Below are positions 4,199 through 33,349 of a stretch of DNA of 34,336 nt, piece after piece; the first letter of the stretch is position 1; every line of letters begins with the position of its first letter. The DNA comes from an uncultured Alphaproteobacteria bacterium. Lineage in GTDB: Bacteria; Pseudomonadota; Alphaproteobacteria; Bin95. The notes beneath the pieces are model-generated. The model did no database searches. It was given only the letters and a program-made list of their open reading frames with translations, and had not been told where the DNA came from. A program made the translations under genes and the position numbers. Where the stretch lies: the NCBI GenBank assembly GCA_937891825.1, contig CALAHN010000155.1:1-34336 (forward strand), written 5' to 3'.

Positions 4199-4315
4199 CG
4201 GGTCCTGGGCGTTTGAACCGACCGGCCTGCGCTCGCGGTTCTGCGGATGACTGTCGGCCATCGCCGGATTGGGCGCTGGCAGATTGCTTGGCCGGCTGCG
4301 AAGAAGGATGACCCA

Positions 4316-5779
4316 GTGAGGCGCTCAAACCGTCTGCCTTTGGGCCTGGCTCTCGGCGGATGCATCTGGCTCGGCCCCATGACCGCTGGCCATGGCCAGA
4401 CCGCGATCGAAACCGACGGGCTGGTCTCGACGGACGCTCAGGTCGCCGTCGCCCCATCGGCCCGGGACGATGCGATCGAGGCGCGGCTCGAGCGGATCAT
4501 GGCGGCGACCGAATGGTATGCCGACGTCGATGTCAGGGTTCGGGAGGGCATCGTGTTTCTGGCCGGCTCGGCGAATGCCGTCGCCCACAAGCAATGGGCG
4601 CAGGACCTTGCCGCCAAGACCGAGGGCGTCGTTGCGGTCGTGAACAAGATTGCGGTCACAGGCGGTCCAAGCTGGGACTACAAGCCGGCGGCCGAGGCGT
4701 TCGCCCAGCTTGCCCGCAATCTCATGTCGAGTTTGCCGCTGATCCTGTTGGCGCTGGTGCTGCTGCCGGTCTTCTGGATCCTGACATTGTTTCTGCGCCG
4801 CGGCATCCGGTGGGCGCTCGCGTCCCGGTTCGAGTCCGAGATGCTGCTACCCCTGGTCGCGCATCTGCTCTCCGTCCCGATCTTTCTGGTCGGAGTCTAT
4901 GCCCTGCTGCAGATTGCCGGCCTCACCTCGCTCGCGGTATCGGTCCTGGGCGGCGCGGGCGTCTTCAGCTTGATTCTTGGATTTGCGTTTCGGGACATCG
5001 CAGAAAACTTTTTGTCCGGGATCATTCTTAGCATCCGGCAGCCGTTCAAGCGCGGCGACTTGATCAGCGTCGCAGACTACACAGGCATCGTCAGCAGCTT
5101 GAACGCGCGCAGCACGATCCTAGTGTCGCTGGACGGCAATCACATCATCATTCCGAATGCCACGGTCTTCAAGAATACGATCGTCAATTTCTCAAGCGCC
5201 CCGCTGCGCCGCGACGCGCTGGATGTCGGGATCGGCTATGAGGATTCTGCCGCCGAGGCCCAGGCTGTCATCGCGGCCGTATTATCTGGGCATGAAGCAG
5301 TCGCGAACGATCCGGCGCCAATGGTTCTGGTCCATGCCCTGGGGGCCTCGACAGTCAATCTCCGGACCTATTTCTGGTATGACGGCAATGTTTATTCCAA
5401 CTTGAAACTCAAGTCCGCCCTCTACCGGCTGATCAAGCGGGCCCTGACGAATGCCGGCATTTCAATGCCCGACGAAGCGCGGGAGGTGGTGTTCCCGAAC
5501 GGCGTGCCGATCGTCCAGGTCGAGCGCGCGCCGCGGCGCCCGGCGCCCGACCGCGACCCTCAACCGCCGCTTGCCCCGCCGCTCGACCCGCTGCATGCCC
5601 CGTCCCATTCAGTCGAGCCGGCGCTCAGTCAGACAGATGCAGAGGGCGGGTTGGCGACCGAAGAAATCGAGGCCGAGGCGCAAGCGGAGGTCGGCGACCT
5701 TCCGGAAGAAAGCGTCGATATGCTGGATGATGTAGCCCCGCCTGAGCGGACGCGATCACCGGGCGACGCGCCCGGCTGA
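4316..5779 (+). CDS. BON-domain mechanosensitive channel of the MscS family
   Basis: This 487-residue inner-membrane channel of the small-conductance mechanosensitive (MscS) type would release solutes on hypo-osmotic shock. I chose GTG 4316 over the in-frame ATG 4247. AAGGA (4304-4308) lies 7 bases upstream of it, and the protein then begins with a basic, hydrophobic signal-like segment (residues 1-27). A BON domain (about 52-115, ending VVAVVNKIAV) follows. Three membrane segments lie at about 138-160, 178-200 and 203-222. The MscS pore helix is in LGGAGVFSLILGFAFRDIAENFLSG, and the beta domain is RQPFKRGDLISVADYTGIV and IIIPNATVFKNTIVNFS. The C-terminus after about residue 396 is Pro-rich and then strongly acidic, probably disordered. 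The BON-MscS fusion is an uncommon architecture. Confidence 0.88.
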   Translation: MRRSNRLPLGLALGGCIWLGPMTAGHGQTAIETDGLVSTDAQVAVAPSARDDAIEARLERIMAATEWYADVDVRVREGIVFLAGSANAVAHKQWAQDLAAKTEGVVAVVNKIAVTGGPSWDYKPAAEAFAQLARNLMSSLPLILLALVLLPVFWILTLFLRRGIRWALASRFESEMLLPLVAHLLSVPIFLVGVYALLQIAGLTSLAVSVLGGAGVFSLILGFAFRDIAENFLSGIILSIRQPFKRGDLISVADYTGIVSSLNARSTILVSLDGNHIIIPNATVFKNTIVNFSSAPLRRDALDVGIGYEDSAAEAQAVIAAVLSGHEAVANDPAPMVLVHALGASTVNLRTYFWYDGNVYSNLKLKSALYRLIKRALTNAGISMPDEAREVVFPNGVPIVQVERAPRRPAPDRDPQPPLAPPLDPLHAPSHSVEPALSQTDAEGGLATEEIEAEAQAEVGDLPEESVDMLDDVAPPERTRSPGDAPG

Positions 5780-14864: not shown

Positions 14865-16784
14865 ATGGCGGACCAAAAGACCATCCTCGACCGCATGATA
14901 CAATTGTCTGACGCGGCAAAAGCCGCGCCGCTGAGCGACCCGATCACGCTCGCGGAAATCAACAAGGTCGCCGACCCGACGCAAAATCAAATTCAGATCG
15001 CGGACGGCATACTCGGCATTTCATTTGGCGCGGCCGTCGAGGAAGGGGCCTATACGATCGCCTATAATCCGACGACGACCGTCATGACCTTACACAATCT
15101 GACGACGGGCGAAATCGACAGCGTCATTGCAGGCGACACGCCCATCCCGGAGCTTTCGATTCAGTTCCTGACGTTCGCCACGCTCGGCGCCGTCATCGTC
15201 CTGAACGGCGCCTTCGATAAATCGCTGCCCATAGCGGATATCGGCGCGAATTACGTTTCGACGTCAGGCAACAACTCAATTCTGGATTCTTCCGTCGAAA
15301 TTAAGTCCGCGACGGCCGACGCCCTGCAAGGGCTGACAACCAATATCGTCGGGATCGATGCGACAAACGCCAACGCAGCAGACCTCAGCATTGGAGGTTT
15401 CCAATCGACGGCGCCTGTCAACCTCGCCAGCACCGGCGTTAAAAACGTGACCCTGTCCGACGGCGTCGATAGCTTCGATCTCAGTTTTCTTGTGAACGAC
15501 GCGTTCTCAAACACTGATTCCGGCGATCTCGAAGTCCAAGCGATCGGCGCGATGGTCTTCGCGGACGCCGCCGACGCGGAGCCAGCGTTCAACTTCAGTT
15601 CCCGGGTCATTGTCGAGACAGACAATCTCGTTCAACGGAATACATTCGCCTCGGCGTCCGCCAATCGCCTGGAGATCGCGGATGGCTTCGAAACATTCAC
15701 TTTCGCGCGCAGCGTTGACGACGGGACCTTTCTTGTGGAGTACGATCCGGTCTCAGGGCTAATGCAATTGACGAACCTGACCAACGGACTGGTCCAAAGC
15801 CAATTCATCGATCCGACCGTCCCGATTGCCGCCAGTGAGACCCAGGACGTAGCATTCAACGCTCTTGGCGCAGTGATTACGCTGAATGATGATTTCGACA
15901 AATCCGTCGCGATCGACAGCAGCGCTGCGCAATATTCTGCGACCGTTGCGGGCGGCGCCGTGATTGAGGGATCAGTTGAACTGCTCGCCGCGACGGCCGA
16001 GGAACCGCCCGCTCTGGGAACCGGATTACTGAACTTTGACGCGACATCGGCGAACCAGGCGATCCTGACGATCGGCGACTTCGCCGCCGCCGCCCCCGTG
16101 GACCTCACATCCCCCGGCGTCAAGTTCGTGACTTTGACCGACGGCGACGACACGTTCGATATCTCGTTCCATGTCGACACCGCTTTTTCGGACACGGACG
16201 CAGGCAATCTCCAACTGCAGGACTTGGGCGCCTTGGTGTTCAACCAGCACGTCGGGCCACTCGAAATTTCGGGCTCCCGGAATGCGGATACGTTGAACGG
16301 CGATGTTCTGGACGACGTCATCTTCGGCGACGACGGCGATGACGTCATGACGGGCGGCTCGGGGTCCGATCTCATGCACGGCGGCGGCGGGGCCGACCGG
16401 ATCGACGGCGGCGACGACGACGACCTGCTGATCGGGTTCTGGGGCGACGACGCGATTACCGGCGGCGCCGGACGGGATCGCATTTTCGGCAACAGCGGCG
16501 ATGACATCCTCGCGGGCGGAACCGGTAACGACAGGCTGACAGGCCAGTTTGGCGCGGATACCTTCGTCCACGCGCCGGGGGACAACAATGACGGCGTCAC
16601 CGACTTCGATCCGACAGAGGACCTGATCGACCTCACCGCGCACAATTTCGCGAACTTCGCCGCAGTACAGGCCTTGATGTCCCAGATCGCGAGCGGAACG
16701 CTGATCGACCTCGCGGGACCGGATTCCGTGCTTTTGGAAGGCGTCGCCATCGGCGCGGTCGGCGAAGCGAACTTCATGTTGTAA
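14865..16784 (+). CDS. RTX calcium-binding protein with two copies of an unrecognised ~190-residue domain
   Basis: This 639-residue acidic protein starts at ATG 14865, with GGAGG (14852-14856) 8 bases upstream. Residues 42-234 and 267-461 are two diverged copies of one domain. Shared landmarks are IADG, Y-x-x-x-x-x-M-x-L-x-NLT-x-G, LGAVI-x-LN-x-x-FDKS, GVK-x-VTL-x-DG-x-D-x-FD-x-SF and DAFS-NTDSG/TAFSDTDAG. About residues 470-565 are glycine/aspartate nonapeptides of the hemolysin type (GDDGDDVMTGGSGSD and similar), which bind calcium outside the cell. The C-terminus (560-639) ends in a hydrophobic FML, as in type I secretion substrates. There is no N-terminal signal peptide. No type I secretion genes are adjacent. 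Base composition is visibly less GC-rich than the neighbours. I infer a secreted, calcium-stabilised surface or extracellular protein of unknown activity. Confidence 0.85.
   Translation: MADQKTILDRMIQLSDAAKAAPLSDPITLAEINKVADPTQNQIQIADGILGISFGAAVEEGAYTIAYNPTTTVMTLHNLTTGEIDSVIAGDTPIPELSIQFLTFATLGAVIVLNGAFDKSLPIADIGANYVSTSGNNSILDSSVEIKSATADALQGLTTNIVGIDATNANAADLSIGGFQSTAPVNLASTGVKNVTLSDGVDSFDLSFLVNDAFSNTDSGDLEVQAIGAMVFADAADAEPAFNFSSRVIVETDNLVQRNTFASASANRLEIADGFETFTFARSVDDGTFLVEYDPVSGLMQLTNLTNGLVQSQFIDPTVPIAASETQDVAFNALGAVITLNDDFDKSVAIDSSAAQYSATVAGGAVIEGSVELLAATAEEPPALGTGLLNFDATSANQAILTIGDFAAAAPVDLTSPGVKFVTLTDGDDTFDISFHVDTAFSDTDAGNLQLQDLGALVFNQHVGPLEISGSRNADTLNGDVLDDVIFGDDGDDVMTGGSGSDLMHGGGGADRIDGGDDDDLLIGFWGDDAITGGAGRDRIFGNSGDDILAGGTGNDRLTGQFGADTFVHAPGDNNDGVTDFDPTEDLIDLTAHNFANFAAVQALMSQIASGTLIDLAGPDSVLLEGVAIGAVGEANFML
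14988..15566 (+). repeat. Domain copy A within the RTX protein
   Basis: This encodes residues 42-234 of the RTX protein. It aligns by eye with copy B along its whole length, with conserved IADG, NLT-x-G, LGAVIVLNGAFDKS and GVKNVTLSDGVDSFDLSF. The similarity is clear in protein but diverged in DNA, which suggests an old duplication. Confidence 0.75.
15663..16247 (+). repeat. Domain copy B within the RTX protein
   Basis: This encodes residues 267-461, the second copy, with IADG, NLTNG, LGAVITLNDDFDKS and GVKFVTLTDGDDTFDISF. It is followed directly by the calcium-binding nonapeptides. Confidence 0.75.
16272..16559 (+). repeat. RTX nonapeptide repeat array
   Basis: About nine to ten Gly/Asp-rich nonapeptides of GGxGxDxUx type (for example GGAGRDRIF, GNSGDDILA, GGTGNDRLT), forming a calcium-binding parallel beta-roll. 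They are encoded by GC-rich, GGCGAC-rich DNA. Confidence 0.85.
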
Positions 16785-24228: not shown

Positions 24229-25449
24229 CTATGAGCGCCAGGCGAGCTTGCGCCAATCCGCGTCAATCTCCGTCGCGGCTTTTTCGACATCATAGGCGAA
24301 TAACCATTCCTGCCCAGGCGGGAAGCCGTCGCCAATGCTTTCTTGCATTCTGGCGAAGCGTCGGTTGCGGCGCTCCAGCGCTTCGGGCTCGGACATGTGG
24401 AACAGGTCCTGGGCCGCCCGGCTGGCGCCCTGCACTTGCGCCGTGCGTTCCCGGCGGAGGTCGGCATATGAGGCGAGCGCCTGGTCGACGTCCGTCAACG
24501 CGAGGCGGCGGGCGAGCACCCAGGCGTCCTCGATGGATTGCGCCGCGCCCTGGGCGTGATAGGGCAACATCGCGTGGGCGGCGTCGCCGATCAGGGCGAT
24601 GCGGCCTTTGACCCACTGCTCCAGCGGCTTCCGGTCGAACAGCGCCCATTTGAAAGGCGGCGCCGAATGCTCGATCAGGCCGCGCACCATCGGGTGCCAA
24701 CCCTTGTATTCGTCCAGCGCGGCTTCCGTCGTTCTCTGGGTCGTCCAGCTTTCCCGCGTGTCGCCGTCGGACGGCCCGATGCCGATCCAGTTGATCAGTC
24801 GGCCGCCAGAGACGAAGTAGATCACCATGCTGCGATCCGGGCCCATCCAGATATAGCTGTCATGCTCGTATCCGAGGTCACGGGCGATCCTGGCGTCGGT
24901 CAGGCCGCGCCACGCCATGCAGCCGGAGAACTCCGGGCTTTCGGGGGCGAACAGACGTTCCCGGATCCGGCTTCTGACGCCGTCGGCCGCAATCAGGACA
25001 TCGCCGTCGATCCGGCGGCCGTCGGCGAGGACGGCCCAGGCGGAGTCCCCGTCCTCGCCGAAGTCGACGACCGGAGCGGCCATCATGATGCGCGGATCGT
25101 CGCCGATCTCCTTGAGGATCGCATCGAGCAGATCGGCGCGATGGGCATGCATGTAGGGCATGCCGAATGCATCCGTCACGGCGTCGCCGAGCGGCGTCGT
25201 CAGAAGCGCGCGGCCGTCATCCCAGGCGACGAAGCGATGGCGGCCGGGCCTGACCGCATGTGGCGCCAGGCGTTCCAGCACCCCCAGATGATCCAGCGTC
25301 CGCGTCGCGTTCGGGCTGAGCTGGATGCCCGCGCCGACCGCTTCGAACTTCGGCGCCTGCTCCAGCAAGCAATAGTCGATGCCTTGCCGCCGCAGTCCCA
25401 GCGCCAGCGACAATCCGGCGACGCCGCCGCCCACGATCACGACCCGCAT
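24229..25449 (-). CDS. FAD-dependent aromatic monooxygenase (salicylate/3-hydroxybenzoate hydroxylase type)
   Basis: This 406-residue group A flavin monooxygenase has the Rossmann start VVIVGGGVAGLSLALGLRRQG, then LSPNATRTLDHLGVLERL. DVLIAADGVRSRIRERLF carries the DG motif and RIALIGDAAHAMLPYHAQGAAQSIEDAWVLARRL (read in parts) carries the GD motif. These enzymes hydroxylate a phenolic ring using NAD(P)H and oxygen. Two ATGs are two codons apart (25455, 25449). GGAGG abuts the first and is 6 bases from the second, so 25449 is chosen. There is no membrane segment. It diverges from the DUF2889 gene by 127 bp. Confidence 0.87.
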   Translation of the reverse strand: MRVVIVGGGVAGLSLALGLRRQGIDYCLLEQAPKFEAVGAGIQLSPNATRTLDHLGVLERLAPHAVRPGRHRFVAWDDGRALLTTPLGDAVTDAFGMPYMHAHRADLLDAILKEIGDDPRIMMAAPVVDFGEDGDSAWAVLADGRRIDGDVLIAADGVRSRIRERLFAPESPEFSGCMAWRGLTDARIARDLGYEHDSYIWMGPDRSMVIYFVSGGRLINWIGIGPSDGDTRESWTTQRTTEAALDEYKGWHPMVRGLIEHSAPPFKWALFDRKPLEQWVKGRIALIGDAAHAMLPYHAQGAAQSIEDAWVLARRLALTDVDQALASYADLRRERTAQVQGASRAAQDLFHMSEPEALERRNRRFARMQESIGDGFPPGQEWLFAYDVEKAATEIDADWRKLAWRS

Positions 25450-25576
25450 ATTCATCCTCCGTTCAGCCCTGCCAGCGCAGCATACCAGACGATCGTCGAT
25501 GCGCATTGACCCCTTCAGCGCAAGATTTATGCTGCGTTGCAAAATCCCGCTTTCCGCATATCAGGAGCTTGCGTCC

Positions 25577-26158
25577 ATGGATTTGAGTCCGCCCGCGCCT
25601 CGGCGCCTGTTGCACACCCGCACGGTCGTCTGCGACGGCTATGCCCGCGATGACGGCCTTTGGGATATTGAAGGCTCGCTGAAGGACATCAAGTCCTATC
25701 CGTTCGAGAACCGCTATCGCGGCCTCGTGCTGGCAGGCGACCCGATCCATGAAATGACCATCCGGCTGACCGTGGATGACCGGCTGACGATCCAGTCGGC
25801 GGAAGCTTTCACCCGCCGCAGCCCCTATGAAGTCTGCCCGAGCGCCGCTTTCGCGTTCCGCCGGCTCGCAGGCCTCAGGATCAAGGGCGGCTGGATGAAC
25901 GAGGTCAAGGAGCGTTATGGCCGCTCCCAGGGCTGCACGCACTTGCTCGAGATGCTCTATCCGATCGGCACGACGGCGTTCCAGACCATCTTCGCCTATC
26001 GGGAGCAGATGCTCCGGGATCAGGGCGTGACGGAAGGCGAGGCGATGCGGCGCAAGGGGCCGCCGGTCGATAGCTGCTATGCGCTCGCGAAAGACGGCCC
26101 GGTGATCCAGCGCCTCCGGGAGGAAGCGGCCGCGAACGCCGTGGAAGCCGCCGAATAG
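25577..26158 (+). CDS. DUF2889 family protein
   Basis: The protein has 193 residues from ATG 25577, with CAGGAG (25562-25567) nine bases upstream. It begins MDLSPPAPRRLLHTRTVVCDGYARD. The body contains DGLWDIEGSLKDIKSYPFEN, PIHEMTIRLTVDD and GLRIKGGWMNEVKERYGRSQGCTHLLEML, the conserved core of the DUF2889 family. The His/Cys/Glu in RSQGCTHLLEML and the ending PPVDSCYAL could form an active or metal site (inference). It has no signal peptide or membrane helix. No activity is established as far as I know. The neighbours are flavin monooxygenases of aromatic degradation type and a 71-residue unknown 48 bp downstream. Confidence 0.8.
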   Translation: MDLSPPAPRRLLHTRTVVCDGYARDDGLWDIEGSLKDIKSYPFENRYRGLVLAGDPIHEMTIRLTVDDRLTIQSAEAFTRRSPYEVCPSAAFAFRRLAGLRIKGGWMNEVKERYGRSQGCTHLLEMLYPIGTTAFQTIFAYREQMLRDQGVTEGEAMRRKGPPVDSCYALAKDGPVIQRLREEAAANAVEAAE

Positions 26159-26448: not shown

Positions 26449-27213
26449 TCAGGTCAAGCTGCGGCTTGCGATGATCCGGCGGACCAGCGCCAGATCGTCC
26501 GGCTTGTCGACGTCGATCGCCGCCTCCGGCGCGGACATCCGAACCGCCGTCACCGGCAGATCAAGCTTCTTGCTGAGCCGCTCCATCGCCCTTTGCAGGG
26601 TCAGCCGGCCGGCCGCATAGAGCGCAAAGGCCCAGGGGTCGATCGCCCGCACCAAGGCCCAGGGGCGTTTCCGGTTTCGGTCGATCTCCTGCCAGAAGGT
26701 CAACGCCCGGCTGGCGTCGGCGCTGGCGAGCGCGAAGAGATTGCAGCCGGAATAGCCGCCGTCGGCGAACTTGAGATAGGTCCGGCGCACGTCGGGATAG
26801 GCCTTCTGGATCGTCGCTTCCGCCGCGAGGCCGACCGCCGCGCCGACGCCAGCCTCGACGACGCCTGCGATGAATTCCTCGACCATATCCGGCGTCAGCA
26901 GCGCATGGTCGCCCGTGACGATCAGCATCGGCGGGCCAAGCTGCTGCAATCCGGCGGCGACCGTATCGACAACCCGCTCCCCGGCGCGCGCGGCTTCGGT
27001 CCTGGTCTCGAGCGCCTTCAGCAAGCTCGCATCCTCGATGGCGACCACGATCCGGCCGACGCTCGGGGCGGCCTCCAGCGCATCCAGCACCCGTTGCAGG
27101 ATCGGCCGCCCATGCACCTCGATCAAGGTCTTGTTGGTCACGCCCTCGGCGATCGCCAGCGGATCGCCCGGCCGGCCGGCCGCGAGCACCAGCGCAGTCC
27201 ACGCGCCGCTCAC
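26449..27213 (-). CDS. NTP transferase (MobA/GlmU-like nucleotidyltransferase fold)
   Basis: This 254-residue protein has the nucleotide-binding start ALVLAAGRPGDP (residues 7-18), K28 in VTNKTLIEVHGRPILQRVL, and LIVTGDHALLTPDMV near 97-111, where the metal-binding Asp is expected. This is the fold that activates sugars, polyols or small acids as NDP derivatives. The start is GTG 27211-27213, overlapping the stop of the acyltransferase-like gene as GTGA, so the two are translationally coupled. Its place at the end of the leftward lipid operon suggests it makes an activated head group (for example a CDP-linked small molecule) for a lipid. The substrate is not identifiable. MobA is a weaker alternative because no molybdenum-cofactor gene is near. 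Confidence 0.75.
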   Translation of the reverse strand: MSGAWTALVLAAGRPGDPLAIAEGVTNKTLIEVHGRPILQRVLDALEAAPSVGRIVVAIEDASLLKALETRTEAARAGERVVDTVAAGLQQLGPPMLIVTGDHALLTPDMVEEFIAGVVEAGVGAAVGLAAEATIQKAYPDVRRTYLKFADGGYSGCNLFALASADASRALTFWQEIDRNRKRPWALVRAIDPWAFALYAAGRLTLQRAMERLSKKLDLPVTAVRMSAPEAAIDVDKPDDLALVRRIIASRSLT

Positions 27214-28355
27214 GTCAGGTCTCGCTGATAGACCCGGTAGGTCTTGTAGGGCACGGCGCCGCCCATCTCCGCGACCCGGCGCATCGGGCCGTTGCCTTCC
27301 AGCACCCAGGATAGCTCCATGGTCTTGTAGCCCTTCGCGGCATGGGCCTTGGCCAGGGCGTCGACCAGCGCGAAGCCGACGACGGGGCCGCGCGCCATGT
27401 CCGCCTGAATCAATCTGGCGACGCCCATCAACAGCACCCGTGCGCTCGTAACGCCCGTGATCTTGACCCGCCAGAGCAAGCGCAGCAGCCCGAAGAGCGA
27501 ACCTGCGCCATGCAATCCGGCCAGCGCCTCATTCACGTTCGGCAAGCTGACCGCCATCCCGGCGGCCTTGTCGTCGATCTCGACAATGAAAATCAGTCCA
27601 TAGTCCGCAATCGCCTTGAAGGCATGGGCGAGCGCGTTGATCTCGCGCTCCGTCATCGGCACAAAGCCCCAGTTTTCCGACCAGGCGTCGTTGAAGATTT
27701 TCAGGATCAACGTCAGATCGCGGTTGAAATGGCGCTTGTCGAAGGTGCGGATGCGGGCGCCCGGAATATCCTTCAGCTTGGCGGCGAACCGGCCGAGATT
27801 GGCGGGCGGGCCGCCTGCCGCATCGTAGCGATAGGCGATCAGGTCCTGCGCCTTGCCGTAGCCCGCCGCTTCCACATATGGCCCCGCCCAGGCCGGATCG
27901 TGGCCCATCAGCAGCATGGGCGGCGTATCGAAGCCGTCGACCAGAAGGCCGATTTCCTCGTTAATCGAGAGACTGGCTGGGCCGAGCGACCGCGTCGCGC
28001 CCTTTGTCCGAAGCCAGGCCTCGGCTTGGGCGAGCAGATCCTGGAAGAGCGCCGGATCGTCAATGGCCGTCAGGCAGCCGAAATGGCCTTCATGAGCGCC
28101 GTGCCGCTCCTGATGGCGGCGGTTGATCTGGGCCGAAATTCGCCCCACGGGCTTGCCGGCACCGTCCAGCGCCACCCAGAACGCAGCTTCGCCGTAGCCA
28201 TAGAACGGGTGCCGCTTCGGATCGAGCTTCTGGGCAGCCTCGAGCGCGAGCGGCGCGATGAAGGCCGGATCCTGCCCCATGACGGCCGCTGGCGTTTCCA
28301 GGAAAGCCTGCCGCGAACGCTTGTCGGCGACGGGATGGATTGTGTAGGGGGCCAC
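27210..28355 (-). CDS. GNAT-fold acyltransferase-like protein, candidate bacterial ceramide synthase homologue
   Basis: This 381-residue protein starts at GTG 28355. The N-terminal half (PFYGYGEAAFWVAL, PVGRISAQINRRH, GHFGCLTAIDDPALFQDLLAQAEAWLRTKGA in parts, GPASLSINEEIGLLVDGFDTPPMLLMGH in parts) is a GNAT-like half domain. The C-terminal part (GFALVDALAKAHAAKGYKTMELSWVLEGN in parts, MGGAVPYKTYRVYQRDL) is the closing GNAT segment. Proteins of this kind are usually listed as N-acetyltransferase-like or hypothetical. The Caulobacter ceramide synthase bCerS is, from memory, a GNAT-fold protein of this type. It lies 10 bp after the hydroxylase gene and is coupled to the NTP transferase. The family is fairly sure; the ceramide role is inference from neighbours. 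Confidence 0.65.
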   Translation of the reverse strand: MAPYTIHPVADKRSRQAFLETPAAVMGQDPAFIAPLALEAAQKLDPKRHPFYGYGEAAFWVALDGAGKPVGRISAQINRRHQERHGAHEGHFGCLTAIDDPALFQDLLAQAEAWLRTKGATRSLGPASLSINEEIGLLVDGFDTPPMLLMGHDPAWAGPYVEAAGYGKAQDLIAYRYDAAGGPPANLGRFAAKLKDIPGARIRTFDKRHFNRDLTLILKIFNDAWSENWGFVPMTEREINALAHAFKAIADYGLIFIVEIDDKAAGMAVSLPNVNEALAGLHGAGSLFGLLRLLWRVKITGVTSARVLLMGVARLIQADMARGPVVGFALVDALAKAHAAKGYKTMELSWVLEGNGPMRRVAEMGGAVPYKTYRVYQRDLT

Positions 28356-28365
28356 GCGGTCCGCC

Positions 28366-29121
28366 TCAGTCCCGCTTTGTGTCGGTTTCGGCGGGCTTCA
28401 GGCCGGACAGCTCCGCGACCCAGGGATACTGGCGATACTGGGCTTCGGTATAACCGAGATTGCGCACGGTCGGGCTCGCGGGCTTCTCCGCGATGCGGCC
28501 GTAATAGGAGCCGAACAGCTTGTCCCAGAAGAACGTCGTGATGCCGTAATTGCCCTGCTCGCTATGGAAATGATGGGCCATGTGCAGGCGTTTGATCCGC
28601 TTCAGCCATGGCCGTCGGGGATTGAACGACAGGTGCTGGATGCAATGGCAGAATTCATAGGCGCAGGTCGTGAAGAGGCCGGCGGCGAAAGCAGCGGCGG
28701 CCCCCCCTGGACCGCCGATCGCCCAACCGATCGGCATCGTCGCGATCGCGATCGTCGGCAAAGTCGTGTAGAGCGCGCCGAAAAGCACGCCCAGATCGTT
28801 CGGGTCGCCGTGATGGTCGAAGTGGATGCGCTTCCAGACCGGCGCCGTCATTGCAGATTTGAACAGGTAGCGGCCATGCAGCACGAAGCGGTGCAGGACA
28901 TACCAGACCAGCCCATATATCATCAGCGTCGCGGCGACCGACGCCAGCGCCGCGCCGATGCCTGGCCACAGATAGACGGCGACGGCGCTTGCAGCCGCGC
29001 CGAGCGCCAGATAGGCTTGGATCGCGGGATAAGCGAAATACGCCCGCACCAGATCCCGCATCGTCATGCGATCGAGATAGTGTTTGCGTCCATCCCAGAG
29101 ATTCGATCGTAGGAAAGGCAT
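28366..29121 (-). CDS. Sterol desaturase / fatty acid hydroxylase superfamily membrane protein
   Basis: This 251-residue integral membrane di-iron enzyme is of PF04116 type. Histidine boxes are HRFVLH (77-82), HFDHH (100-104), HCIQH (159-163) and HMAHHFHSEQGNYG (180-193), with hydrophobic segments at about 36-75 and 113-155. Members hydroxylate or desaturate acyl chains, sterols or sphingoid bases with O2. ATG 29121 has AGAGG 7 bases upstream. As first gene of the leftward operon, it diverges from the LptF-like gene across a 109-bp promoter gap. Hydroxylation of a long-chain base or amide-linked acyl chain would fit the acyltransferase next to it (inference). The catalytic histidines look complete. 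Confidence 0.88.
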   Translation of the reverse strand: MPFLRSNLWDGRKHYLDRMTMRDLVRAYFAYPAIQAYLALGAAASAVAVYLWPGIGAALASVAATLMIYGLVWYVLHRFVLHGRYLFKSAMTAPVWKRIHFDHHGDPNDLGVLFGALYTTLPTIAIATMPIGWAIGGPGGAAAAFAAGLFTTCAYEFCHCIQHLSFNPRRPWLKRIKRLHMAHHFHSEQGNYGITTFFWDKLFGSYYGRIAEKPASPTVRNLGYTEAQYRQYPWVAELSGLKPAETDTKRD

Positions 29122-29230
29122 GCGCGCGCCTCTAAATCCTGCTTAAAGGCGGGGTGTACGGCGCCCGCACGGGCGTCGCAAGTGCGCGGCTGCCGCATTC
29201 CCCCGGAAGCATGCTAAGAGATCGCCCGTC
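29122..29230. promoter_or_regulatory. Divergent promoter region of the two lipid operons
   Basis: This 109-bp gap separates the oppositely transcribed hydroxylase and LptF-like genes and must hold both promoters. It contains a 14-bp palindrome CGCCCG-CA-CGGGCG (29162-29175), a possible shared operator. No convincing -35/-10 pair could be assigned. Confidence 0.4.
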
Positions 29231-30391
29231 ATGGACCGCATCGACCGCTATATCCTCAGCCACCTCGCCGGGCCGTTCTTCGCCGCGCTTCTGGGCGCGC
29301 TGGCGCTGTTGTCGCTGGAACGGATGCTGCGCCTCTTGGACTATGTCGGCAAAAGCAAGAACGCCATCGCCTATGTCTTCGACATGCTGGCGAACCTGAT
29401 CCCGCATTATCTTGGCATCGCGCTTCCGGCCGCGCTCTTCATCGCCTGCTATGTGGGCTATCGCCGCCTGGCGCAAACCAGCGAACTGGCCGCGTTCGCC
29501 AGTCTCGGCCGCGGGCTCGCGCGGCTGACGGTCCCGGCGATGGTCGCGGCCCTGCTGCTGACCGCCATTTCGGCCTATGTGCATAGCAACATGCAGCCCT
29601 ATGGCCGCTATGCCTATCGCCAGTTGGGCTTCCTGGCCGCCAATGCGTCGATCGCGGCCGCCGTCGAGTCCGGGGCGTTTGTCGAGCTTGGCGAGATTAC
29701 CTTCACCGCGGAAAAAGCCGAAGACGAGCCGTCCGGCCTGGCGCGCGTCTTTGTGCATGAACGCGAAGACGATGGCGCCATCCGCACGATCACCTCCAAA
29801 GGCGGGGCCTTGCTCGACAGCCCCGAGGCCGGGCGGTCCCAGATCGACTTCACCAGCGGGGTCATGCTCGCGGAGGGCCAGGACGGCGACCGCTCGGTCA
29901 TTCACTTCGGCGGCCTGTCCTGGCCGATCCAGCGCGGCGCCTTCAACGACTTCCGTCCCCGCGGCGCGACGGAACGGGAGCTGACCTGGCCGGAACTGCT
30001 GGTGATGCGCGACAGTCCGCCCGAGGGCGTGACGCGGGACCAATTGCTGGCGGAACTGCATGGCCGGGCCGCGAAAACCCTGACGATCCTGCTCGTCCCG
30101 CTGTTGGCGATCGCGCTCGCCGCGACCGGCGGCCGCGCGCGCTCCTCCTGGCCGCTTGCCTTCGGCGGCATCGCCTTCCTGGTGCATATCCAGGTGCTGC
30201 AGTTCGCCGAGGGTCTGGCGGACCTCGGCAAGCTCGACCCCATACTCGGCATCTGGGGACCGTTCGCGCTCTCGACGGTCCTGGTCCTCTGGTTGTTCTG
30301 GCGGGTCTGGCGCGGCGTCGGCTTCGAGCCGAGCTTCGCCGCCATTCGACTGCCGCGCTGGCGCCTTGGCCGGGTTGGGGCGACCGGTTGA
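29231..30391 (+). CDS. lptF: LptF-like permease (YjgP/YjgQ family)
   Basis: This 386-residue inner-membrane protein is of the LptF/LptG family. In the canonical system, LptF and LptG form the transmembrane part of the ABC exporter that lifts LPS out of the inner membrane. It starts MDRIDRYILSHLAGPFFAALLGALALLSLERML (read in parts). There are three membrane helices before about residue 130, a periplasmic beta-jellyroll domain (about 135-275), then three helices (TILLVPLLAIALAATGG onward). The coupling-helix region SELAAFASLGRGLARL is present. Its stop overlaps the next ATG (TGATG). It is not next to lptD, surA or pdxA as canonical lptFG often are, but next to a lipid kinase. A paralogue for another lipid is therefore a real option. 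Confidence 0.8.
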   Translation: MDRIDRYILSHLAGPFFAALLGALALLSLERMLRLLDYVGKSKNAIAYVFDMLANLIPHYLGIALPAALFIACYVGYRRLAQTSELAAFASLGRGLARLTVPAMVAALLLTAISAYVHSNMQPYGRYAYRQLGFLAANASIAAAVESGAFVELGEITFTAEKAEDEPSGLARVFVHEREDDGAIRTITSKGGALLDSPEAGRSQIDFTSGVMLAEGQDGDRSVIHFGGLSWPIQRGAFNDFRPRGATERELTWPELLVMRDSPPEGVTRDQLLAELHGRAAKTLTILLVPLLAIALAATGGRARSSWPLAFGGIAFLVHIQVLQFAEGLADLGKLDPILGIWGPFALSTVLVLWLFWRVWRGVGFEPSFAAIRLPRWRLGRVGATG

Positions 30392-31455
30392 TGGGCACGC
30401 TTGACCGCTATCTGCTGAAGCGCCTGCTCGGCACGTTTATGCTAGTGTTTTTCGGCGTCGTCGGCATCGCGGCGACGCTCGACATCCTGGCGAACGCCGA
30501 CGAGGCGGTCAAAGAGACCGGCGCAGTCGGCGGCATCGGCGTCTATATCATCGCAAGACTGCCGCTGATCGCGCTGAAAATGGCGCCGATCGCCGGATTG
30601 CTCGCCGCGCTGATCACCCTTCTCTCGCTCACCCGGACAGGCGAACTCGGCGCAGCCGCCGCCCTTGGCGCGAGCCAGGGACGCACCGCGCGGGCCCTGT
30701 TGCCCGCCGCATTGGGCCTCGGCCTCGCGCTCTTCGCGATATCGGAATTTGCAGCGCCGCCCGCATCGACCAAGCTGCGCGCCATGGGCCTCGATCCGTT
30801 CGCCAAGGTCGCGCGCCCGGCGAACGCCGTCTGGCTCCGCGAGAACGATGACGTTATCCGGATCGCCCGCATATCGGCCGATGAAAACGTCCTTGGCGGC
30901 GTTACGATCTTTCGTCGGTTGCCCGACGGCCGCCTGGCGTTCGAAATCCGCGCCGCGTCGGCCGAGCGCGACGGCGGCGGCTGGCTGCTCAAGGACGTTG
31001 AAGTCATCAACACGGATGGCGCGCCGCCGGAATTCGGCAGCGAAATGCGCTGGCCCACGCCGTTGGGGCCGAGTTCCTATCGCCATCTCGGCGCCCACCC
31101 CCAAGAGCTTGCGATCGCCGACATCAAGGCATTTTCCGCCAATCCTGGCTCGAGCCCGAAGCCGCAGTTCTATTATGACCTTTGGCTGCAGCAGAAATAC
31201 GCCGGGCCGATATCGGCGGCGCTGCTGCTGCTGCTGGCGATCCCATTCGCCGGCCGCCTGGCGCGCAACCGCTCGCTCGGCGGCTCGCTCGCAGTCGGCC
31301 TCTCGGTCGGCTTCGCGTATTTCGTGTTCGACAACCTCGCCCTCGCCGCCGCCGAGGCTGGGGCGATTTCCGCGGCCGCCGGGGCCTGGGGGCCGCCCGC
31401 GGCGCTGGCGTCGCTGATCCTCACGTTGATTGCGTTTCAGGAAAAACCCGGATGA
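30391..31455 (+). CDS. lptG: LptG-like permease (YjgP/YjgQ family)
   Basis: This 354-residue partner of the preceding permease starts at ATG 30391, overlapping its stop by one base. The N-terminus TLDRYLLKRLLGTFMLVFFGVVG begins three membrane helices, with TRTGELGAAAALGASQGR as the coupling segment. The periplasmic jellyroll holds AVWLRENDDVIRIARI and GGVTIFRRLPDGRLAFEI. Three more helices follow (SAALLLLLAIPFAGRLARN, SVGFAYFVFDNLALAAAEAG and a last one ending at EKPG). Order and lengths match LptG. The ABC ATPase LptB is not encoded here and would have to be shared. The stop overlaps the lipid kinase start (ATGA). Confidence 0.8.
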   Translation: MGTLDRYLLKRLLGTFMLVFFGVVGIAATLDILANADEAVKETGAVGGIGVYIIARLPLIALKMAPIAGLLAALITLLSLTRTGELGAAAALGASQGRTARALLPAALGLGLALFAISEFAAPPASTKLRAMGLDPFAKVARPANAVWLRENDDVIRIARISADENVLGGVTIFRRLPDGRLAFEIRAASAERDGGGWLLKDVEVINTDGAPPEFGSEMRWPTPLGPSSYRHLGAHPQELAIADIKAFSANPGSSPKPQFYYDLWLQQKYAGPISAALLLLLAIPFAGRLARNRSLGGSLAVGLSVGFAYFVFDNLALAAAEAGAISAAAGAWGPPAALASLILTLIAFQEKPG

Positions 31456-32459
31456 GCGACGCCGTGGAAAAGCTGTCGCCGCCCGGCCTTATGCTGGGCG
31501 TCCTGATCAACATGCATAGCCGCAGGAACCGCAAGCGCCCGCCCGATCTGGCGGGGTTGCGGGCCGGCGGCGCGCATGTGGAAGCGCCCGCCGACGAAGC
31601 CGACGTGGAACCGGCGCTCCGCCGCATGGCCGCGGCCGGGGTCGACCTCGTGGCCGTGCACGGCGGCGACGGAACGGTGCTATCGGCGCTGACGGCGATC
31701 CTCTGCCAGAACGCCTTCCCGCAGCCGCCAATCCTGGCGCTGCTGCCGGGCGGCACCACCAACATGACCGCCGCCGACATCGGCTTTGCCGGCCAGCCCG
31801 CCACCCTCGCCCGTGTGGCCGAGATCGCGGCCAATGGCGGCGGCCGCTTGCTCCAAAGGGAAGCGCTGCTGCTGGAGAACGCCGCATCCGCCGATGGCGC
31901 GGCCCCGCCCCAGGCCGGGATGTTCTTCGGCGCCATCGGCATCTGCCGGGCGATCGCATTCTGCCGCCGCCATCTCCATGCCAGGGGCGTCGTCGGCGGT
32001 CCTGCGGCCTGGTTGACCCTTGGGCCGCTGTTGTTGAAGGCGATGACGTCTGACAAGCCCGACGGCGTGCTGGCTGGCGCAGCGGCGCGGCTGACGGTCC
32101 GGCAGGCCGATGGCGCCGCCGAGACCCTGGACGGCCCGTGGAGCGTGCTGATGGCCTCCAGCCTCCGCAAGCTCGCCCTTGGCAGCCGCCCGTTCTGGGG
32201 CGAGGGCGCGAGCGGCCACGGCGTAGACGTCACCTGCGTCCGCGCGCCGCCCTTCCGGCTCTGGCGCATGATCTGGCCGCTGCTGTTCGGCAAGCCCGGC
32301 AAGCGCCCGCCGGAGCCGCACTATGTCAGCCGCCGCGCCGGAACGATCGAGATCGCCTATACCGGCGCCGTGACGCTCGACGGCGAGATGTATGCGGCGA
32401 ACGCGGCGACGCCCTTGCGTCTGTCCGCATCGCCGCCCGTGCGGTTCCTGGTCGGATGA
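31452..32459 (+). CDS. Diacylglycerol kinase-family lipid kinase (candidate ceramide kinase)
   Basis: This 335-residue cytoplasmic or membrane-associated kinase has the DAGK catalytic fold (PF00781). The nucleotide loop is AVHGGDGTVLSAL (GGDGT at 71-75), followed by LALLPGGTTNMTAADIG (98-112). There the common GTxND motif reads GTTNM. The C-terminal beta domain ends GAVTLDGEMYAANAATPLRL, with the conserved DGE. ATG 31452 overlaps the LptG-like stop. Family members phosphorylate diacylglycerol, sphingosine or ceramide. The ceramide kinase CpgB of Caulobacter is of this fold. The acceptor lipid here is inferred only from the neighbouring genes. Confidence 0.8.
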   Translation: MSDAVEKLSPPGLMLGVLINMHSRRNRKRPPDLAGLRAGGAHVEAPADEADVEPALRRMAAAGVDLVAVHGGDGTVLSALTAILCQNAFPQPPILALLPGGTTNMTAADIGFAGQPATLARVAEIAANGGGRLLQREALLLENAASADGAAPPQAGMFFGAIGICRAIAFCRRHLHARGVVGGPAAWLTLGPLLLKAMTSDKPDGVLAGAAARLTVRQADGAAETLDGPWSVLMASSLRKLALGSRPFWGEGASGHGVDVTCVRAPPFRLWRMIWPLLFGKPGKRPPEPHYVSRRAGTIEIAYTGAVTLDGEMYAANAATPLRLSASPPVRFLVG

Positions 32460-33349
32460 CCGCGATGGACGCGATCGAAGCTCTGGTTCAGGCGGAGTTG
32501 CGCCGCCCGGTCGAACCGGCGGCGGCGACCCTGGCTGAGGCCGCGCGCGCTGCGGTCGGCGGCGCTGTCGTTGTCCTCTATTACGGATCATGCCTTCGCG
32601 ACGGCCTCAGCACGGAGGCTGTCGCCGACCTCTATATCCTCGTCGCCGACTACCGGCGCAGCAGCCGGACCCGGCTCGGCGGCCTCGCCAATCGGGCGCT
32701 GCCGCCGAACGTGGTCTACCTGGAAGCCGCGACGGCGAGCGGCCGCATCCGCGCCAAGGCTGCCATCGTCGCGCTCGATCAGTTTGAGGCCGCGTGCGGC
32801 AAGGATCACTTCCATTCCTATTTCTGGGCGCGCTTCGCCCAACCCGCCGCCCTGATCTGGACGGCCGACGACGCCACGCGCCGCCGCACGGGCCGCGCGA
32901 TCGCCGACGCAATCCGCACATTCGCCAGCGAAACCAGCGCCCGGCCGCTCGCAGCCCATGACGGCGCCAGCGCCGCCTTCTGGATCGGCGGCTTTCAGAA
33001 AACCTACGCGAGCGAACTCCGCGCCGAAGGACCCGGCCGGGCTGAGACGCTCTACCGCGCCGACCAGGCCCGCTACGACGCGATCTATGCATTGCTGGCG
33101 GCGGAAAACCTGCGGCCGGCAGGATCGCCCGGCCGCTGGCGGTTGCGGCAGGCGCTTGGCAAGGTCTTGTCCGTCCTCCGGCTCGCCAAGGCGATCTTCA
33201 CGTTCGAAGGCGGCCTTGACTACATTCTCTGGAAGATCGAGCGCCATACCGGCGTCCGTCTGGAGGCCAGGCCATGGCAACGGCGCTGGCCGCTGCTCGC
33301 GGCGCCCGGCCTCGCGTTCAAGGCGTGGCGAAAAGGCGGGTTCCGTTAG
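32456..33349 (+). CDS. Nucleotidyltransferase-like protein, possibly a phosphatidate/ceramide-phosphate cytidylyltransferase
   Basis: The protein has 297 residues from ATG 32456, overlapping the kinase stop as ATGA. Residues 38-66 hold VVVLYYGSCLRDG and VADLYILVADY, the Gly-Ser and Asp signature of polymerase-beta-type nucleotidyltransferases. RIRAKAAIVALDQFE, HSYFWARFAQPAALIW and FEGGLDYILWKIERHTGV follow. The pattern recalls the Tam41 type of CDP-diacylglycerol synthase more than CdsA, since there are no membrane helices. With a lipid kinase directly upstream, CMP transfer to a lipid phosphate is the simplest proposal. No catalytic proof is possible here. Only one Asp of the usual pair is obvious. 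Confidence 0.6.
   Translation: MTAMDAIEALVQAELRRPVEPAAATLAEAARAAVGGAVVVLYYGSCLRDGLSTEAVADLYILVADYRRSSRTRLGGLANRALPPNVVYLEAATASGRIRAKAAIVALDQFEAACGKDHFHSYFWARFAQPAALIWTADDATRRRTGRAIADAIRTFASETSARPLAAHDGASAAFWIGGFQKTYASELRAEGPGRAETLYRADQARYDAIYALLAAENLRPAGSPGRWRLRQALGKVLSVLRLAKAIFTFEGGLDYILWKIERHTGVRLEARPWQRRWPLLAAPGLAFKAWRKGGFR

Follow-up and report, generated by a model that had tools for sequence, protein, structure and literature searches.

Taken together, our analyses indicate that a seven-gene locus in a 34,336-nucleotide stretch of alphaproteobacterial DNA (hereafter the window) very probably serves to make and export ceramide phosphoglycerate, and that the genus carrying it has apparently lost its lipopolysaccharide (LPS); the export step itself we infer from sequence. 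It is likely, moreover, that ceramide phosphoglycerate would form the outer leaflet of this LPS-free genus, the whole Lpt pathway, with its sole LptF2G2 pair and LptD, acting as a dedicated sphingolipid exporter.

The sequence-only reading of the window had described seven genes in two divergent, overlapping operons with lipid-related folds, and every open reading frame was confirmed at its coordinates (Table 1). The minus-strand operon runs from the hydroxylase through the GNAT protein to the NTP transferase, and the plus-strand operon from LptF through LptG and the kinase to the second nucleotidyltransferase. Neighbouring genes are joined by 4-base overlaps, the exceptions being LptF/LptG, which overlap by 1-4 bases depending on the start, and the 10-base gap between the hydroxylase and the GNAT gene. 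Pfam backs the proposed folds for six of the seven proteins (NTP_transf_3, 3e-12; Acetyltransf_1, 1e-5; remaining E-values in Table 1), whereas the seventh, CpgC, gave no significant match in the Pfam search and is assigned a Tam41 nucleotidyltransferase fold by a high-confidence model. A search for a sigma-70 consensus site in the divergent intergenic region found none, and promoter and terminator scans yielded no more than expected by chance.

Table 1. Features of the seven-gene locus, in window positions, with the evidence for each assignment.
Feature	Position	Strand	Evidence
NTP transferase, CC_1153 type	26449..27213	-	Pfam; 43% identity to Caulobacter; 303-bit profile
bCerS, GNAT fold	27210..28355	-	46% identity to Caulobacter cerS; 534-bit profile
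Scs7/FA2H-like membrane di-iron hydroxylase	28366..29121	-	FA_hydroxylase 5e-21; His boxes
Divergent intergenic region, ~110 bases; expected site of both promoters	29122..29230	.	Position
LptF2 permease, sphingolipid-cluster type	29231..30391	+	LptF_LptG 2e-58; tree
LptG2 permease, sphingolipid-cluster type	30388..31455	+	LptF_LptG 8e-56; tree; likely ATG at 30391
Ceramide kinase, CpgB type, DAGK fold	31452..32459	+	DAGK_cat 2e-11; 231-bit profile
CpgC, Tam41-fold nucleotidyltransferase	32456..33349	+	39.5% identity to Caulobacter CpgC; model

The locus was followed across 14 genomes of the order, five belonging to the genus (G000, which is the source of the window, and G010, G011, G012 and G013) and nine to sister genera. 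The seven-gene order is kept within the genus, being whole in G013 and whole except for the hydroxylase in G010, and the order in G011 and G012 is compatible with it across contig breaks. Judged by gene arrangement, this recurrence of the divergent order is far beyond chance. Elsewhere the window encodes an MscS-type mechanosensitive channel that also carries a BON domain (4247-5779, plus strand), a 639-residue protein with RTX calcium-binding repeats (14865-16784, plus strand) and, just past the end of the minus operon, a DUF2889 protein (25379-26158, plus strand).

In a tree of 71 LptF and LptG proteins, the window LptF falls within a cerS-linked LptF2 clade (SH-aLRT 99) and is separated from the LPS-type LptF proteins of the sister genera; an LptF-only tree gives the LptF2 clade a support of 100. 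A shared origin of the window LptF and the LPS-type LptF found in the sister genera was considered, and the corresponding constrained grouping was rejected (p-AU 0.015). The window LptG groups with the cerS-linked LptG2 (SH-aLRT 92), more weakly than LptF does with its own clade. A single LptF/LptG pair (two matches) is present in 13 of the 14 genomes, the other one, G001 (75% complete), yielding one match. In G000, G013 and G010 this sole pair sits in the seven-gene locus, and G011 and G012 are compatible with the same placement across contig breaks. LPS-type LptFG is absent from the genus genomes, whose single pair is of the sphingolipid-cluster type; since the LPS-type permeases of the family are missing and only those of the sphingolipid cluster are present, the genus does not use LPS-type permeases.

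The route that bacterial sphingolipids take between the inner and the outer membrane is described in the literature as unknown (PMC11324152, PMC11087976); a study on the localisation of sphingolipid enzymes states that a transporter is yet to be identified (PMC11087976). This leaves some room for the idea that the biosynthesis is as we read it, but that LptF2G2 carries another lipid, for instance a glycosphingolipid, and that ceramide phosphoglycerate is exported by a different route, the sphingolipid transporters being called unidentified in both papers. We consider this unlikely, however, since the genes for LptF2G2, CpgB and CpgC overlap within a single operon and the linkage of LptF2G2 to cerS extends across alpha-, beta- and gammaproteobacteria. 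It has been proposed for Caulobacter, without transport data, that duplicate LptC, LptF and LptG proteins export sphingolipid in parallel with LPS export (PMC11324152). Read from gene content, the genus shows the pattern to be expected under this proposal, and LPS should not be a confounding factor in such a lineage.

Other arrangements of permeases near cerS were also observed. At seven loci (L025, L026, L032, L054, L065, L071 and L073), several of them Acetobacteraceae-like, LptF or LptFG lies 5-10 kb away and forms a clade of its own that is neither LptF2G2 nor the LPS type of the sister genera. Most of these loci contain a hydroxylase-CerS mini-cluster, and in most of them no CpgB, CpgC or CC_1153-type gene was found in the stretch. 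In Pseudomonas asuensis (L085), a ceramide phosphoglycerate cluster is present with a nearby LptFG outside the LptF2G2 clade.

The distribution of LPS markers sets the genus apart from its relatives. All five genomes of the genus and none of the nine from sister genera encode CerS; LpxC, in turn, is found in 0/5 and 9/9, and LpxB in 0/5 and 8/9, respectively, with the E. coli and Caulobacter controls behaving as expected and the loss of LPS being read from these two markers in draft genomes that are 83-99.97% complete. Each of the five genus genomes encodes LptD, and four of them encode LptC. Given that LpxC and LpxB are missing, that LptD is kept and that the sole LptFG is of the sphingolipid type, the genus looks naturally LPS-free. 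Literature searches on LPS-lacking alphaproteobacteria and on Sphingomonas with LptD returned no relevant new paper. The draft state of the genomes and the use of two markers could be taken to mean that the genus does make LPS, with lpx genes missed through assembly gaps or divergence and LptF2G2 serving LPS as well. This is, however, highly improbable, as neither family turned up in any of the five independent assemblies, yet the sisters (9/9 and 8/9) and the controls are positive, and LPS-type LptFG is absent too. An LPS-free genus thus remains the preferred reading, and its biosynthetic genes are considered below.

The window proteins were scored on profiles of their relatives, the genus itself being left out, and their one-to-one pairing with Caulobacter genes comes from direct comparison with the genes around Caulobacter cerS. 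The biosynthetic proteins reach 231-534 bits, and every biosynthetic profile matches solely its own protein. The roles of CerS, CpgB, CpgC and CC_1153 in the formation of ceramide phosphoglycerate in Caulobacter have been published (PMC11324152, PMC10331486), and further genetics and biochemistry of the pathway are available (PMC11324152, PMC10331486, PMC12275187, PMC13228409). The GNAT protein, suspected from its fold to be a relative of the Caulobacter ceramide synthase bCerS, is indeed 46% identical to it and reaches 534 bits against a profile of 76 CerS orthologs that includes none from the genus; its relatives are encoded in 308 candidate stretches found by a search of genome contigs, and a sequence search of solved structures brought nothing useful for this protein. 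The NTP transferase is 43% identical to the Caulobacter protein encoded directly downstream of cerS (the CC_1153 position) and scores 303 bits on a profile of 43 orthologs. An assignment of this gene as CpgD was ruled out because the Arg of the G-x-G-x-R signature is missing from its product, which matches CC_1153 by both sequence and position; the catalytic Arg is present in a separate CpgD encoded on contig C42.

In a sequence search of solved structures, yeast Scs7, a ceramide fatty acid hydroxylase, provided the only relatives of the hydroxylase (3e-13). The His boxes HX4H, HX2HH, HX3H and HX2HH are invariant in 19 orthologs, and in about 18 loci, many of them alphaproteobacterial, the gene immediately precedes cerS. 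The enzyme therefore probably hydroxylates the acyl chain of ceramide, as far as homology and gene neighbourhood indicate. A literature search on bacterial ceramide 2-hydroxylases returned no relevant new paper.

The lipid kinase was likewise recognised as a relative of CpgB: it is 30% identical to the Caulobacter enzyme, carries the GGDGT motif and adjoins CpgC as in Caulobacter, and it scores 231 bits on the CpgB profile, whereas the best of the NCBIfam lipid-kinase models gives it 32 bits. CpgC is 39.5% identical to Caulobacter CpgC and scores 314 bits on its ortholog profile. Since a sequence search of solved structures brought nothing useful for CpgC, a predicted model was used. Modelling with AlphaFold2 from 34 orthologs gave a mean pLDDT of 91.6, and the model superposes on Tam41 (7ecd) with a VIA-align Z of 16.8 over 213 residues, the next family reaching Z 7.6; residues G44, S45, R48, D58, Y60 and K101 are invariant in the 34 orthologs. 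In view of the Tam41 fold, ceramide-1-phosphate, rather than the head group, is probably activated. In this regard, CpgC is probably a CTP:ceramide-1-phosphate cytidylyltransferase yielding CDP-ceramide, as its predicted fold and its position suggest. The sequence-only reading had both nucleotidyltransferases activating either the lipid or a head group; this now stands in a sharper form for CpgC, which most likely acts on the lipid, whereas the NTP transferase is of the CC_1153 type. The biochemistry of CpgC is still described as open (PMC12275187), and an InterPro hint of a CDP-DAG synthase has been mentioned for CC_1161 (PMC11324152).

Among the window reading frames compared with Caulobacter genes, there is no serine palmitoyltransferase (Spt) or CerR, as had been observed earlier, and the search of the genome that had been suggested located Spt, CerR and AcpR, all on one contig (C161). 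Spt is 53% identical to Caulobacter Spt and adjoins AcpR and CerR; CerR shows 43% identity and is partial, the contig beginning inside cerR. The order AasR-CerR-AcpR-Spt is intact in G010, G012 and G013, where AasR adjoins CerR, and AasR is partial in G011; no AasR was seen in the genome of the window, where the Spt contig ends inside cerR. Genomes with the locus and without Spt would speak against the proposed pathway; Spt is present in 5/5 genus genomes, at 53-55% identity to Caulobacter Spt, versus a paralog of at most 35% in the sister genera.

CpgA, a HAD-family phosphatase and CpgD are encoded consecutively on one strand of contig C42 (L168, 1945-4299), CpgA and CpgD at 51% and 55% identity, respectively; the phosphatase may fill the place that the phosphoesterase CC_1158 has in Caulobacter. 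By homology, then, the genome has orthologs of Spt, CerR, AcpR, CerS, CpgA, CpgB, CpgC and CpgD in addition to a CC_1153-type protein. Within the genus, three genomes out of five encode CpgA, and two (that of the window and G013) have a close CpgD. No close match to CpgA or CpgD was found in G010 and G011, which may therefore stop at a mono-phosphoglycerate lipid. These are the smallest genomes of the genus (2.6-2.8 Mb), and G010 has no hydroxylase beside cerS. The missing CpgA and close CpgD, together with the hydroxylase gap in G010, suggest that their lipid could be simpler.

With the upstream genes found elsewhere in the genome, the original interpretation of the locus holds, and synthesis and head-group decoration of a sphingo-type lipid are supported by every proposed sequence check that was run. 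That the product is instead a different N-acyl amino lipid and no sphingolipid is scarcely credible: GNAT and DAGK are general lipid-enzyme folds, but orthologs of Spt, CerR and AcpR accompany CerS in 5/5 genus genomes, 0/9 sister genomes have CerS or a close Spt, and the bit scores on ortholog profiles given above are high across the biosynthetic proteins.

These findings allow us to propose a model for ceramide phosphoglycerate. Spt would condense serine with acyl-AcpR, CerS would attach the amide chain and CerR would reduce the base, with the Scs7-like enzyme hydroxylating the acyl chain. CpgB would then phosphorylate the ceramide and CpgC convert ceramide-1-phosphate to CDP-ceramide. A phosphoglycerate head group would be attached, CpgD providing CDP-glycerate, and CpgA would add a second phosphoglycerate unit. 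LptF2G2, together with an LptB ATPase, would extract the finished lipid, which could reach the outer leaflet by way of LptC, LptA and LptD and replace LPS there.

Caulobacter makes LPS and has a second LptC, LptF and LptG, and for this reason it is difficult to tell in that organism what each of the two sets does. The genus described here, with its LPS markers gone, LptD kept and a sole LptFG of the sphingolipid type, comes close to a natural knock-out experiment, one that would reveal the Lpt components required by an outer membrane with sphingolipid only. Related genera within the family, which have kept the LPS markers and lack ceramide synthase, offer a natural contrast. As bacterial sphingolipid transport is unsolved in the literature, the genus constitutes a strong comparative test case.

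Regarding individual enzymes, the predicted fold of CpgC matches that of Tam41, a mitochondrial and bacterial CDP-diacylglycerol synthase, but the two share 16% identity over the aligned part, CpgC has no Pfam Tam41 match and its presumed substrate is ceramide-1-phosphate. The hydroxylase retains the His boxes of the yeast Scs7 family, ceramide hydroxylation being in this case a prediction from sequence. Compared with the Caulobacter crescentus cluster (CC_1152-CC_1168), orthologs of CerS, CC_1153, LptF2, LptG2, CpgB and CpgC are gathered in the seven-gene locus, whereas those of Spt, CerR, AcpR, CpgA and CpgD lie elsewhere in the same genome. LpxC is present in Caulobacter, where the control matches, and missing from the genus. 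The genus locus is, in addition, a compact divergent unit with an Scs7-like hydroxylase, while acyl hydroxylation in Caulobacter is assigned to the DesA-type protein CC_0202 (PMC11324152). Two Azospirillaceae-type loci (L053 and L058) and two from metagenome-assembled genomes (L069 and L079) share the hydroxylase-CerS-CC_1153 block, LptF2G2 and CpgB, as well as CpgC where the locus reaches that far, in a different gene order. Finally, Sphingomonas likewise has a naturally LPS-free outer membrane with sphingolipids (PMC11324152, PMC11087976), a condition that in the genus is deduced from its genes. The genus is placed apart from Sphingomonas, one relative being labelled Rhodospirillales, and its compact locus contrasts with the sphingolipid genes of Sphingomonas, which are scattered over the genome (PMC11324152).
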